In this document: positions 4,040-43,041 of the stretch, piece by piece
How positions within the stretch are numbered: position 1 is the stretch's first letter
Layout: every line of letters starts with the position of its first letter
Source of the DNA: Fomitopsis serialis
Lineage: Eukaryota > Basidiomycota > Agaricomycetes > Polyporales > Fomitopsidaceae
Length of the DNA: 51,644 nt
NCBI RefSeq assembly: GCF_022376445.1
Contig: NW_025955242.1
Location: forward strand, 1-51,644
Direction: 5' to 3'
Notes under the pieces: model-generated
Database searches by the model: none
What the model was told of the DNA's origin: nothing
What the model saw: the letters and a program-made list of their open reading frames with translations, nothing else
Made by a program: the position numbers and the translations under genes

Positions 4040-4691
4040 TCACTGATGTACGGGAAGCCTTCAGCTGAGGGTACTACATCAGACATGCGCCGCGGTCACT
4101 GACCTGGTCATTACGGCGCCACAGGAAGATGCCGGGGGCAGCGAGGGCGGGCTCGGAGGGCGCGTCCGTCTGGGTCGGTACCGAAGAGAACGAGTTGTCA
4201 CGACGCCACAGGAAGATTCCGGGGGCAGCGAGGGCCGACGGAGGCTGGGACGCCTCTGCAGGCTCGCCGTTCGTGTTGGGCGAGGACGCAGTGTCGAGCT
4301 CGCGGCGCCAGAGGAAGATGCCGTCAGCGACGAGGGGGGAGTCCTCTGGTGCGTCTGCCGTCAGATGAGTGGAGGGAGGTGTAGTGTCGCGGCGCCAGAG
4401 GAAGATGCCATTAGCGACGAGGGGGGAGTCCTCTGAGCCGTCCGCCGTTGGCTGAGGGGAGGGAGGCGTAGTGTCGCGGCGCCAGCGGAAGATGTCGGGA
4501 ACAGCGATAGGGTGGGACGGGGTCGGCGTGGCCGGCTCACCGACTGATGTTGGGTGCTACGGGAGAGCGTGAGTCGAAAGCGTGCTTTGAGATGTGCGAG
4601 TGGGACTTACAGCGTGTTCCACGGGCGCAGCGCAGACCGAGGCTGCAAGAACGAACGCTGAGAAGAGAGCAGAGAGAGTGAAGGACTTCAT
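4040..4691 (-). CDS. Secreted precursor with five tandem IF-x-W-RR core repeats
   Basis: Model: exons 4611-4691, 4104-4556 and a final exon 4040-4042 holding only the stop; about 178 residues. If the last intron is retained, translation adds ten residues and stops at 4074. Residues 1-20 or so form a signal peptide (MKSFTLSALFSAFVLAAS...), followed by APVEH. The rest is Pro/Ser/Thr/Ala/acidic linker broken by five cores: PDIFRWRRD, NGIFLWRRD, DGIFLWRRE, PGIFLWRRD, PGIFLWRRN. Core spacing is 29, 29, 34 and 29 residues, and the linkers repeat DSPLVA or ALAAPG just before the core. Each core ends in a dibasic RR, the kind of site cut by Kex2-type proteases, so several short peptides ending in an aromatic core could be released (inference). 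The layout matches fungal Kex2-processed repeat proteins, including some RiPP precursors; I do not recognise this exact family. It has a paralogue at 10196-10535 that shares the signal peptide, intron position and promoter. Confidence 0.85.
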
Positions 4692-4790
4692 GCTTGTAAG
4701 AGAAAGGAAGATCGGTAATCTAGCGAGTGCTTGGCGAGGTATGTTGCTTGCTTGGAGAATTCTGCTGCCCAGCGGCCCCGGTAAGGCCTA

Positions 4791-4888
4791 CTTTTATACG
4801 CCCCGCTCCCGCGAGCCTCTGTCCTGTGTATACAGCATCCCGCAAGCTGCGATTGTCGACTTGGAGAGGAATGCGACAGTTGTCGACT
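4791..4888 (-). promoter_or_regulatory. Promoter of the five-repeat precursor, shared with its paralogue
   Basis: Reading on the minus strand, a TATAAAAG box (4791-4798) lies 100 bp upstream of the start codon. It is preceded by the block GGCTCGCGGGAGC (4805-4817) and, further up, by a dyad CGACA-N2-TGTCG (4874-4888). The same three elements, in the same order and similar spacing, precede the paralogue at 10026-10124. Such conservation inside otherwise diverged sequence suggests function, or a young duplication. Confidence 0.7.
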
Positions 4889-5713
4889 CGCCGAACCGTC
4901 GTACTGGACGCCTGTCAGGCGCACACAGCCCGGACTAGACCCAGCTTGACTCGCTGCTGTGCGTCATGTTCGAGTGTCATGCTCGGAAAAGGCAAGCGTT
5001 GTAGACGGAGCAGGCCACAGTGTGGCCAGTACCCGCGGTCGCACCTCAACGAAACATGTTTAATGTCGACTTGTGGAGGGCTGCCTGTGACACCTATATT
5101 CAGAGATCTGGATGTGGATACGGGGAAACTGCGTACGGTATGCGTTGTCCGGGGCTGAGTGCTACAGGCCATGCCGTGCACTGCGCGACTGCGTGCCTGC
5201 CCGAGACAAGACCGTCGGGTGGGTCGGAGTCATGATGACGATACAGCATATCTGAGCGGATACCGGACTGGCAGTGTCTTGACCACTTTGGAACACTGTT
5301 GATCATAAGTGGGCTCACACGCGCGCAGGTGCAACAATGTAGCAACTTGACAGAAACGATGCCCCGAGGCCAGCCCTAACTCCTGATTCCAAACCGTAGC
5401 AGTGAACAGTATGATCGCGCTCTCGTGCGTGATGAACATGCATTGTCCGAGGTTACAGCAGGCTACACAGATCCGTCGTACCGAGACGAACCTTAATCGA
5501 ACGTAACATTTCCCGTCGGGAGCGCGTCTCGCGGAACACCTCCCTGCAGGCGGGTGAGGCGCGGGCGACTGATCATCTCGACGCTGGCTGCCGACGGTGG
5601 CGGTGTTGGAAATGTTGAAAGCGGGACACTGTTCAAGTCTTGGACAGCGCGTCAGCGTAGCATCCTGACACTCCCCTTGAATGCGATGCACTTACCGGTT
5701 CCGGTTGGTCCAG

Positions 5714-7410: not shown

Positions 7411-9719
7411 GGTGGGCAGCAACGGCTGCAAGGCGTTCGCACCCCGGTCTCGCGGGATAATAACGTCCTCCGCACAACCAGGCCTTCTAACCGCGTGGTG
7501 CGTACGTCTACTCCTGGCGTTAATCAGAACCTTCAGGCAACGGGGCCCAATAGCTGCTGTCTATGTCTATCCATATCGATGAGCGCTTCTACGCCGCCCC
7601 GCAGAATGGGCGGCGAATTGACCTCAACATGGAGGAGATTCATCCGGACAACGCCACCACGCTCCCCACTCTTACTGTTCGTCGTTGCATAGTACCGAGC
7701 ACGGCCTGCGAGAGAGCGCAGACGATATGGAGGGAACGCGACCGGCGCTAGCAATAGAGTTACGTCTCCGGGCATGGGGAATGAATCTCACGTTCTCCGG
7801 ATTGCCATGCGAGCCGACGACGACGGATTCGACTGTCGCACGCACAAGTGCTCGGTGCTCCGCGCGTCCGCACTTGCGCCAGGGATAGTAATTGAAGGCG
7901 ACTTGAGAAACCACCAGCTGAGTCCAAGTCGTTCGTCTCGCACTGCAGTGGGTAGAGGTTTTTCCAGACGTTTGCGTTGCAACGAAGAGCAGGGGTTGAA
8001 GCAGAGACGAGTTAGGCTATCATATTGGAAAGAACAGGTCGCCGTTGAGTACTTGAGTACGAGTTCTGCATACGTCAAACTGGGTAGAGACAAACATGCT
8101 CAGGTTTCACTCAGCCCACCGCGTTGCCGGTGCGACGCGATCACATGATCTCGCAAGCGACGATAACCTCCTCCTCTTCCTCCTCGACTGGTCACTGCGT
8201 GTTTTGAGTCCTCAGTCGACATCCTAGTGCAGGCATTATGTGCAGATGAGTAGAATGGGCTGCTTACGATTGGCACGAGTCTCGGCCGGCTTATTTACTT
8301 ACCCTCAACTTGCTTCACGGCTTCTCGATTCGAGTCTGTGTATCGTAAACTGTGTGGCCAGATGGACATAGTATGGCAATTGCTCTGATAATACTGTGGG
8401 CGGGGCGACTACTAGGTGCGGCGCATAGTACCCAGAGCGTTGGCGAAGGTGCGCACTACTTATTTAGCAGTGATTACGGCTGAAGATTATTCTCGCAGGT
8501 CGATGGAAACCACACTGTGATTTACAACCGTCCGCGCTGTTCAACAGATGCAGACCAGTGCAACTTATGGCTATAACTTTGACATGCTTCGTACATGAAC
8601 CACAGATTTCCGTTCTTCGATGTTGACCGAGATCTGAGCAAAGCCGCTGATCAAGGGCGCCCGCGGTCTCGCTGCAGTGGCTGCATCGGAGATACGGAGT
8701 ATACGACGGTGTATAGTCTCGCCGATTTTGTCAGACTTGTGCTGTTCCTCGTCCTCTGACGTCGAGCCGCTTCAGCTATCTATCATGTCTTGCAAAGTGT
8801 ACCGGAGAAAGTATACCATTCAACTGTTTGACGAATAGCATGCAGGCATGAGTTTTCTCCCGCTACGACGGTTCCACGACTCAGCTGAGAAGCTCTATTA
8901 TTACAGGCATCGTTTTCTTGTGATAGGGTAGTGTCCATACTCAGATCGTGTTTCAGGTTGGCGTCAACCAATTTGAAGGCCTTGAAGATGTCACCAGGAC
9001 AACTTGTCGAGCATCGGTGCGTGTGCAAGTTTCAGAAGGACGGGGTGCGTGTTCACATTCCCACCGGACGCGTGCGTTTTGTGCTGATGAGGACCGCGAC
9101 TTCGACTCCTCCACAGGTGACTCCGCGCGGACGCAGCAATACTAGTACGATCACAGGGAATCCAATTTCACCCTCTTCGTGCTCAGGCTGTACCAACCGA
9201 GGACTACTATGCTGGACTAACCGGAACCGGACTGGTGAGTGCATCGCACTTGCGGGAACTGTCAAAGTTCCATAATGATGTGCCGTCTAGGACTTGAAAG
9301 CTGGCAGACGGTCTTTGGCCATCTCCAGCACTGCCACCGTCGCCGACTGCCAGTGTCGAGAGATGAACAGTAGCCCGAACATCTTGCATCATCAGGAAAT
9401 AACATTTCCCGGGGGCGTTATGCTGTTTGATTAGGTTCGTCTTAGTGTGACGGATCCGTGGAACATGCTAAAACCTCGGACAAAGCATGTCTATCACGCA
9501 GGAGAATATGATTATACTGTGCACTGGCAGCGCGCTGCTACTGCGTTACATCAAAATCTAGGCTATCCTCAAGGCGTCGTTTGCGGTGTCGAGGTACTTG
9601 ATTGCCACATCTCTGTGCATATAGCCGTTCAACATTGCAGAAGGCACGGTAACGATATTGGCGTTCAAATAGGATGCGTCGTCAAGCATGAATTTGAGCT
9701 GTTCGATGGTTCGGAACAA
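7411..9719. other. No recognisable gene
   Basis: Contains only short open frames on both strands. A stretch on the minus strand at 9558-9791 reads as a plausible soluble sequence, but I could not attach further exons or a family, so it is not called. No RNA gene, terminal repeat or transposase motif was seen. Confidence 0.4.
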
Positions 9720-10025
9720 CCTCCGCACCTGCGCGTTGGCATTGGGCGGCCTGGCCCTTGACACTTGGTCCCGGGTAACGTAGACCATCATACGCTATGC
9801 CCATATATTCGTGTCCAGATCTCTGATACCCAAGCATCACAGATGTCCCTATACCAAGTCGACATTACAGCTACTCTGGCCCTCACACGAGTCTTCAGGC
9901 TTCATTGCTTGCCTTTTCTAGATGTGACACCCGAACATGACGCGCAGCCGCAGCAGTGAGTCAAACAGGAAGCAGGGACTGGCTGTGTGTCTACTTGACA
10001 GACGTCGAATGATAGCAGTTCGTCT

Positions 10026-10124
10026 AGTCGACAACTGTCGTAACTCTCACTATTTTTACGATCTCAGCTGGCGAAATGCTACATACACCGCACAGCGGCT
10101 CGCGGGAGCAATGGCGTATAAAAG
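10026..10124 (+). promoter_or_regulatory. Promoter of the short repeat precursor
   Basis: TATAAAAG at 10117-10124 lies 79 bp upstream of the start codon at 10196. GGCTCGCGGGAGC at 10097-10109 and the dyad CGACA-N2-TGTCG at 10026-10040 are the counterparts of the elements before the five-repeat precursor. The dyad could be bound by a dimeric transcription factor (inference). Confidence 0.7.
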
Positions 10125-10195
10125 CAGAGCCTCTCTGGAGCCTCAGAGCAGCACAGCCCACCGACTACACCACGGCGCAAGTCCCTCACGCAAGT

Positions 10196-10535
10196 ATGAA
10201 GTCCTTCATTCTCCCGACTCTTTTCTCCGCGCTCTTCCTTACGTTGGTTCGCGCAGTGCCCGTGGAGCACGACGTGAGCTTCATTCACGCATTGTGACAA
10301 AGTTCTGGCTCACGTTTATCTCCCTTAGCCTGCGCCATCTTCTTCCTCTCCTGTCGTTGCTGACAGATTCTTTCGATGGAGCCGCGAGACAGCTGCGGTG
10401 CCATCGACTCATACTATGGGAGAACCCGTGGACTCCCCACTCGTTGGTGGCGGCATCTTCATGTGGCGTCGTGACACTACTCTGTCTGTCGCACCGACTC
10501 AAGCGGCCGCACCCTCTTCCCCCGTCGTCCCCTGA
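10196..10535 (+). CDS. Short secreted precursor with two IF-x-W cores (paralogue)
   Basis: Exons 10196-10273 and 10329-10535, 94 residues. The signal peptide begins MKSFILPTLFSALF and ends near RAVPVEHD, closely matching the five-repeat precursor; intron 1 sits at the same codon. Core 1 reads DRFFRWSRE, so the dibasic site is degraded to SR. Core 2 reads GGIFMWRRD and is intact, preceded by DSPLVG as in the paralogue. The frame then stops at TGA (10533-10535) exactly where the third core should start. This is a shrunken or decaying copy that could still release one peptide. Function unknown; see the 4040-4691 entry. Confidence 0.8.
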
Positions 10536-41477: not shown

Positions 41478-43041
41478 ATGTACTTGAATCAGAACAATCG
41501 TGGTCGCCGCGCCTCACAGCCTGCTAAGAATGGCCGCGCGGCCCGCCCTGCCAACGGGGGTGTTGCACCACCCCCGTATACCCCATACCAAGGAACGAAC
41601 TCGTATGTACAGCTTGTAAGTAGGACAGTTAGACATCCGCTGATATTTTGCTAGCGGGCATAACCACCAGCCGAATACCGCCCGCCGCCAGTACAATCCG
41701 TATGGCCAAAACAGGTACGCCTCGATACCTGAACCACTCACTGAGCACGATTTGTTGAGTCGGTTTTCATTTAGTGGGCCTAACGAAAGATCGCCTCTGA
41801 ACGGCGATCTCCCTCGGTATGGCTATCGAACTGAGCCGCCCCCACCGCCGATCAAGCGTCCGAACAAGGCGCGGGCGGTTCCCAAATGGGTCTGGATCCT
41901 GTTTGTAGCGGCTTCCATCGTGGGGATCGTGGTCTTTGGCATACTACAGACCTGCCGTGCCAACAGACAGACCCACCGCGCCGACGCCCTAGACCGCCGC
42001 CTGGCGGAGTACCCACCCACGCGCGTGGAGCTTGACGCGCTCAAGGCAGAGTGGGAGGAGGGGCGCACGAAGCATGAGATGGAGAAGCGGGCGTATGACG
42101 CGGATACGGAGCGGTGGAGGCGTGCGATGCAGGGGCATGAGGCGGCGAAGAGAGGGTGGGCGGAGGAACAGGAGCGATGGGCGCGTCAGAAGGAGGCGCG
42201 CGAGAGGGAGTGGAAGGAGGAGCAGGGGCGATGGGTGCGTCAGAAGGAGGCGCGCGAGAGGGAGTGGAAGGAGGAGCAGGAGGAGCAGGCACGGCAAAGG
42301 GAGAAACGCGAGAGAGAGCGGAGGGAGGAGCCAGTCCAGCACCGCATGCAGGAGGGTAATGTGTTGGGCTTGTCTTGGGGACAGATCGAGAGCCACCAGT
42401 GCGTCCGCTATGGGACTCGGGAGTATACGGCACGCCTCGCCTTCAATGTGAAGGAGGCGTGCCAGCATATGCCCATCGCTATCAATGGCACCACAATCAG
42501 CGCACCTCATGAGTGCATCATGGCGAGTCGCGACGTCCATCTGCTTGTGTTGATTATTGATGTCCGGACTGCAGGAAGGAGACGCTCTGGTGAGTCGCTG
42601 GAACATCGATCAGGGCGAAGCGGCATGCAAGCCCTACTGGGGAAAACTGTATGACAAGGTTCGTCAGTTCGACAATCAGACTCTACCGGTGCAGGGTTGA
42701 TTGGCCGTATTGCAGGGTTGTATTGGTTGGGGCTCTGGCAAGCACGTAAGTCCTCCCGAACTCCTGTCATCGTACAACGTCAAGTTATGCGCGCTCACCC
42801 ACTGCTGCAGCGCTACGAAGCCCGCCTGTGGGATATCCATGATGGCATGGATTGGATGGCCATGTGTACCACCACCCCCGCCGACATTCGTGGCCACCAT
42901 CTCGATGCCCCGACGCATTGCGACAATCGAGTGTGTCAATTTTTGGACCCATACCCGCATGCAGCGTGGCTGACTTGTATGTAGGGCATTTTCCATGGCA
43001 TGGTCGGCATGTGGGATGTCGACGACTACCAGTGCCAGTGA
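41478..43041 (+). CDS. Single-pass membrane protein, coiled coil plus cysteine-rich C-terminal domain
   Basis: Exons 41478-41615, 41671-42534, 42575-42658, 42716-42745, 42811-42930, 42985-43041; 430 residues. N-terminal 115 residues are polar and proline-rich; one membrane helix follows (WVWILFVAASIVGIVVFG, about 119-139); then a long charged coiled coil with an 18-residue tandem repeat (EEQ-x-RW-x-RQKEAREREWK); then a C-terminal domain with QCVRYGTREYTARL, ACKPYWGKLYDK, GCIGWGSGKHRYEARLWDI, MCTTTPADIRGHHLDAPTHC and a final WDVDDYQC. The Cys spacing suggests disulfides, so the domain probably faces the lumen or outside (inference). I have seen this arrangement in uncharacterised Agaricomycete proteins but know no function. 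The 40 bp second intron and the short fourth exon are set by phase. Start chosen at the first ATG in an otherwise open frame. Confidence 0.72.
42163..42324 (+). repeat. 54-bp tandem repeat in the coiled-coil region
   Basis: Two near-identical 54-bp units (42163-42216, 42217-42270) and a third, diverged one (to about 42324), each encoding 18 residues of the heptad-rich coiled coil. Confidence 0.85.

Follow-up and report, generated by a model that had tools for sequence, protein, structure and literature searches.

The KEP1 gene and its repeat units

The window, by which we mean the whole 51,644-nucleotide stretch that was analysed, corresponds to contig C204 in an assembly of Fomitopsis serialis (66.2 Mb, 806 contigs), which is placed in the Polyporales, Fomitopsidaceae. 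The species is a brown-rot bracket fungus and has the synonyms Antrodia or Neoantrodia serialis. On the minus strand of the window lies an open gene, KEP1, with a start ATG at 4691 and a stop TGA at 4042-4040. The two-intron model of 178 aa fits exactly the coordinates 4040-4691 reported in the first-pass annotation, to which we can now add the strand, since none was given there. The features of the gene are:

4040..4691, minus strand: KEP1 gene, 178 aa, three exons (4691-4611, 4556-4104 and 4042-4040), from splice sites and frame
4793..4798, minus strand: TATAAA box, a motif match only, about 107 bases before the ATG
4626..4691, minus strand: predicted signal peptide, residues 1-22, from a hydropathy peak of 2.05 over 19 residues and the -3/-1 rule
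4557..4610, minus strand: intron 1, 54 nt, GTAAGT..TAG, at the same position in the duplicate KEP2
4043..4103, minus strand: intron 2, 61 nt, GTCAGT..CAG, with the TGA immediately after it; likely, not certain
4476..4493, minus strand: core 1, IFRWRR, from translation and DNA pattern
4389..4406, minus strand: core 2, IFLWRR, from translation and DNA pattern
4302..4319, minus strand: core 3, IFLWRR, from translation and DNA pattern
4200..4217, minus strand: core 4, IFLWRR, from translation and DNA pattern
4113..4130, minus strand: core 5, IFLWRR (IFQWRR in the other haplotype), from translation and DNA pattern

The translation of 4691-4020 opens with MKSFTLSALFSAFVLAASVCAAPVEHA, followed by intron 1 and then by the frame that bears the five cores. 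Other choices of intron 1 gave proteins of merely 87 or 44 aa, and the plus strand was rejected as coding since its frame 1 is interrupted by stops. With intron 2 removed, the TGA comes right after RRNDQ. Reading through intron 2 instead brings a stop at 4074 and a protein of 187 aa; a CaaX box at this read-through end (ACLM) was dismissed because the Cys is not four residues from the end. Alternative acceptors for intron 2 (5, 30, 39, 95 and 99 nt) brought no additional core, and 5 nt is too short for an intron. The public model of the allelic protein P0002, read as sequence against protein, has intron 1 as in KEP1 and the homologous intron-2 acceptor. The signal peptide was called solely from hydropathy and the -3/-1 rule, and the hydropathy scan detected no hydrophobic stretch beyond residue 25.

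When KEP1 is cut after each RR and the signal peptide is taken off, fragments of 32, 29, 29, 34, 29 and 3 residues are obtained, and all five long ones end in IFxWRR. This agrees with the first description of the locus as five near-regular units of about 29-34 residues, each ending in an aromatic core and RR. Among 200,000 shuffles of the mature protein, 199,991 lacked IF.WRR, nine had it once and none had it twice; the real protein has it five times. Compared with 300 shuffles, alignment scores between units were higher by z 3.9 to 22.7. In three of the ten unit pairs (1-2, 1-3 and 2-4) the best shuffle was equal to or higher than the observed score; some units thus resemble each other only weakly outside the core. 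In the core itself the only amino-acid difference among the five copies is position x, and the IFxWRR codons gave a pS of 0.39 and a pN of 0.03 (pooled over the ten unit pairs, which are not independent). A degenerate DNA pattern for IFxWRR matched the genome 50 times, and its reversed control 30 times. Of the 50 matches, 12 fall in the KEP1 locus or its allele, with the remaining 38 dispersed. AlphaFold2 run on exon 2 gave no fold (pLDDT 47.4, pTM 0.12), and this result, obtained from a thin alignment of six sequences, is consistent with a disordered precursor.

Alleles, the duplicate KEP2 and relatives

Over the 10 kb that were compared, contig C312 (312,136 bases) shares three long blocks with the window (99.2, 97.7 and 91.6% identity), and C204 is therefore most likely the other haplotype of a region on C312. 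The allelic protein is P0002 (Fomitopsis serialis B0H18DRAFT_393406), with 98% identity over 57% of the query. Exon 1 is identical between the haplotypes. Exon 2 of the other haplotype lacks three bases at one place and a single base of a C-run at another, and it carries three substitutions, all nonsynonymous: I to V, F to L and, at position x of core 5, L to Q. The loss of the single base, in the copy at C312:12294-12757, changes the reading frame downstream of core 2. P0002 is translated in this altered frame, so the public entry hides three of the five cores. This frameshift could be a real null allele or an assembly error.

A second, diverged copy of the gene, KEP2, lies inverted in the same window:

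10196..10535, plus strand: KEP2, diverged inverted duplicate, 94 aa, intron 10274-10328
4763..4997, minus strand: KEP1 promoter region, an inverted match to that of KEP2, 71% over 247 columns
9907..10153, plus strand: KEP2 promoter region, resembling the one of KEP1, with TATAAA at 10117

KEP2 has a predicted signal peptide like that of KEP1 and a 55-nt intron at the position of KEP1 intron 1. Its cores are FFRWSRE and IFMWRRD, and a TGA precedes the remnant of a third core (FLWSSD); the relative P0007, unlike KEP2, carries an uninterrupted third core. KEP2 is present in both haplotypes with an equal score and the same stops. Besides the 71% match of the promoter regions, 9425-9526 is 79% identical to the inverse of 5400-5502, which suggests that one inverted duplication probably carried gene and promoter together. 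Apart from KEP2 and the alleles, no further paralogues were found in the genome, and three weak rows (E 0.36, 0.49 and 1.1 on C486, C212 and C168) were dismissed.

The frameshifted allele, the nonsynonymous changes in exon 2 and the interruption of KEP2 in both haplotypes suggest that KEP1 may be dispensable. The frameshift and the interrupted duplicate would also be expected if the family were decaying here and left no useful product. We consider such a decay very unlikely, since the copy in the window has an open frame, the differences in core codons between its units are mostly silent, and the relative P0001 retains the build at 66% identity; moreover, the C-run frameshift could be an assembly error.

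Homologue searches covered 5.77 billion proteins; the follow-up rounds scored only the candidates sharing most words, and the last round brought nothing new. This protein search, proposed together with the first description, returned, besides the allele P0002, five relatives with the build maintained:

P0001: 66% identity to KEP1, build kept
P0003: 306 aa
P0004: Rhodofomes roseus EVJ58_g301, 111 aa
P0006: 219 aa
P0007: 116 aa

Both members with a named source, Fomitopsis serialis and Rhodofomes roseus, belong to the Fomitopsidaceae. A further hit, P0005 (E 1.5e-3, 24% of the query), resembles a translated DNA repeat and was excluded from all counts.

From KEP1 and the five relatives we collected 25 cores with the expression [IFLMY][FY].W, which fixes the aromatic residue and the W by construction and misses the degenerate units of P0006; P0002 and KEP2 were left out of this set. 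The first core residue is I in 21 of the 25, D or G stands directly before it in 24, and P two places before it in 20. Position x is L in 10 cores, R in six, K in two, C in two, and Q, V, A, N and M in one each. The oddest feature of the family, in our judgement, is this AP[DG]IF_W frame with its one free position. After the W there is RR (16 cores), DRR (one), AR (two), SR (one), ED (one), AD (one) or the end of the protein within one residue (three). Arg occupies the second place after W in 20/25 cores, and the relatives keep the W and the following Arg where the strict RR is not kept. The three proteins that terminate at W or one residue later come from unverified gene models and hint at W as the mature end.

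The cores are also better conserved than the spacers between KEP1 and P0001 (23/24 residues identical in the cores, 55/72 in the spacers; Fisher p 0.037), a comparison made over the three of five planned unit pairs that could be aligned. KEP1 unit 3 has no P0001 counterpart of its own, and the KEP2/P0007 pair was not used.

Cutting does not seem to be kept at every unit of the family, since RR is missing in four of the eight cores of P0003 (ED, AR twice and the protein end) and P0006 contains degenerate units. The persistence of the IFxW part in P0003 where RR is lost, as well as the disordered AlphaFold2 prediction, would suit a protein that is never processed: a disordered secreted or wall protein, rich in Ser, Thr and Pro, that works uncut with IFxW as a binding repeat. 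However, the Arg at the cut position in most of the cores, the five intact RR of KEP1 and the lack in KEP1 of a known domain or of a hydrophobic stretch past residue 25 make this quite improbable.

Class assignment and candidate processing machinery

Fungal Kex2-processed repeat proteins (KEPs) join a predicted signal peptide to three or more similar units flanked by dibasic sites and have no other domain (PMC6339444, PMC7329392), and the architecture of KEP1 supports its assignment to this class, with the processing itself predicted. The five relatives, the diverged duplicate, the disordered structure prediction and a kexin gene in the genome add support. One published definition requires three or more tandem repeats, each 8 to 100 aa long and delimited by Kex2 sites (Umemura 2020, PMC7329392), and another requires at least four fragments, three of them similar (Le Marquer 2019, PMC6339444). 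Counted on RR-cut fragments, apart from the authors' own pipelines, KEP1 has units of 29, 29, 34 and 29 aa flanked by RR on both sides in addition to the first unit, and six fragments in total. The build shared with KEPs, which had been recognised from the sequence at first reading, thus agrees with the checkable parts of the published definitions. None of the five RR sites is followed by a STE13 dipeptide (XA or XP; we found DT, DT, EL, DN and ND), and so the alpha-pheromone-like class of KEPs is not indicated.

The KEP1 protein had no match in Pfam, and the family profile had no sequence match in the PDB with E up to 1, which leaves the repeats without a matching structural protein family in these databases; such a match had been named as evidence against the first reading. 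Our literature search found no paper with both IFLW and Kex2, no paper linking a KEX2-processed repeat with Polyporales and no paper on the Fomitopsis serialis genome; for the core strings, none of the matches listed was by title a fungal-peptide paper. The first-pass remark that no named family with this core was known therefore holds in Pfam, the PDB and the papers searched. A comparison with published repeat-protein catalogues had also been suggested: the conserved motifs compared, from PMC6339444, include EDYXI, XSDW, YVW and others, and the [D/G]IFxW of KEP1 is absent from them. Basidiomycete strains average 5.30 KEPs and most KEP types are confined to one genus (PMC7329392), so a narrow new family is to be expected in such a setting. 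We rate the KEP1 family as a new and narrow one, judged from sequence, within a well-known and common class of fungal precursors. It may already stand unnamed in the supplementary catalogues of PMC7329392 and PMC6339444.

The genome encodes a kexin, as judged by domains, since a gene on C68 combines an S8 peptidase domain with a proprotein-convertase P domain. There are 29 rows for S10 carboxypeptidases, among which Kex1 was not singled out, and eight rows for DPPIV_N on two contigs.

UstYa (PF11807, DUF3328) has 34 rows in the whole genome, and KEP1 shares its precursor organisation with the dikaritin RiPPs of the ustiloxin type (PMC9769878). Both facts would fit cores that UstY-type or other enzymes cyclise or modify in another way. 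However, none of the 34 rows lies on C204 or on the allelic, 312-kb C312 (where the flank on one side of the gene is only about 12 kb), as the earlier failure to find a DUF3328/UstY-type gene in the window had indicated, and a cyclised RiPP is thus not supported. The Pfam scan of the window covered 20 of the 93 frames of at least 120 codons; it identified an Alg9-like mannosyltransferase, a dual-specificity phosphatase, an M20 peptidase, a pof12-like propeller and APC1, and no peptide-modifying enzyme among these 20. The units of KEP1, at 29-34 residues, are also long compared with those of dikaritins. Taken together, we regard a modified RiPP at this locus as extremely unlikely.

Elsewhere in the genome, some of the UstYa-type genes are paired on one contig (e.g. 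C151 and C113) and may mark real cyclic-peptide clusters. Within the window, a frame at 41644-42654 has a hydrophobic transmembrane-like stretch and no Pfam match. A 54-bp tandem repeat at 42139-42331 in this frame encodes a charged, Arg/Glu-rich, coiled-coil-like region.

Predicted peptides and their possible roles

We favour, with a probability of roughly 0.6, the reading of KEP1 as a secreted five-unit precursor which Kex2 cuts after the five RR to release five linear, [D/G]IFxW-ended peptides that act extracellularly. The signal peptide would be removed by signal peptidase on entry into the secretory pathway, and Kex2 would cut after each of the five RR. A Kex1-type carboxypeptidase would then trim the RR and leave W as the mature end. 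The expected products are peptides of 30, 27, 27, 32 and 27 residues, which would not be cyclised. Each would have a front that is polar and rich in Ser, Thr and Pro, and a hydrophobic end (weaker in the first); the predicted pI is 4.05 for four of them and 5.75 for the first. The average masses calculated for the five, unmodified and without RR, are 2813.0, 2867.1, 3239.5, 2819.0 and 3243.6 Da. The conserved end AP[D/G]IFxW may be the active part, and the peptides may work extracellularly, either in signalling or against other organisms.

W-ended KEP peptides of mushrooms, for example SGVAADW and GPPAPSW, have been detected by mass spectrometry (PMC9769878). Their likeness to KEP1 is one of build, namely a predicted W end before RR and a linear peptide; KEP1 differs from these -AADW and -APSW types in its units of 29-34 residues and in the lack of STE13 dipeptides after RR. 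This parallel in the predicted mature end, together with the relatives that stop at or near W, leads us to prefer an extracellular peptide with an active C-terminus. The same study found no antibacterial activity for the synthetic Coprinopsis cinerea KEP peptides tested and no visible phenotype for six kep knockouts in this species (PMC9769878).

The main rival is a surface role like that of Rep1 of Ustilago maydis, in which amphiphilic peptides released by Kex2 would assemble on the hyphal surface. The likeness to Rep1 was drawn by length and hydropathy: both have amphiphilic, Kex2-bounded units that are a few tens of residues long. Rep1 peptides measure 35-53 residues and Hum3 repeats 31-36 residues (PMC4617103). 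In four of the five predicted KEP1 peptides the front is polar (GRAVY -0.66 to -1.31) and the last eight residues are hydrophobic (1.47 to 1.54), and a structural role would tolerate the variation of the fronts among units. However, the KEP1 units are shorter than those of Rep1 and contain 34-41% Ser, Thr or Pro, which would disfavour fibrils, and the hydrophobic end of the first peptide is weaker (0.35). We consider such a surface role unlikely.

Most mushroom KEP peptides have no known role. In the KEP1 family processing and activity can be tested directly, since the conservation of the end is sharp, a single position varies and the masses of five products are predicted. The free residue x varies between units, between the duplicates and between the two haplotypes of one strain. 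This residue would carry the identity of the signal if the fixed AP[D/G]IF_W end served as a lineage-specific peptide code, a reading that we consider unlikely; trimming by an aminopeptidase up to the conserved X-Pro bond would then leave a common short peptide.

The only two Cys at position x among the 25 cores occur in P0003 and P0006. At their C-terminal ends both proteins share CARKR[DN]D as well as a final core containing this Cys (DIFCWA and DLFCWV), and a disulfide between the two Cys is conceivable.
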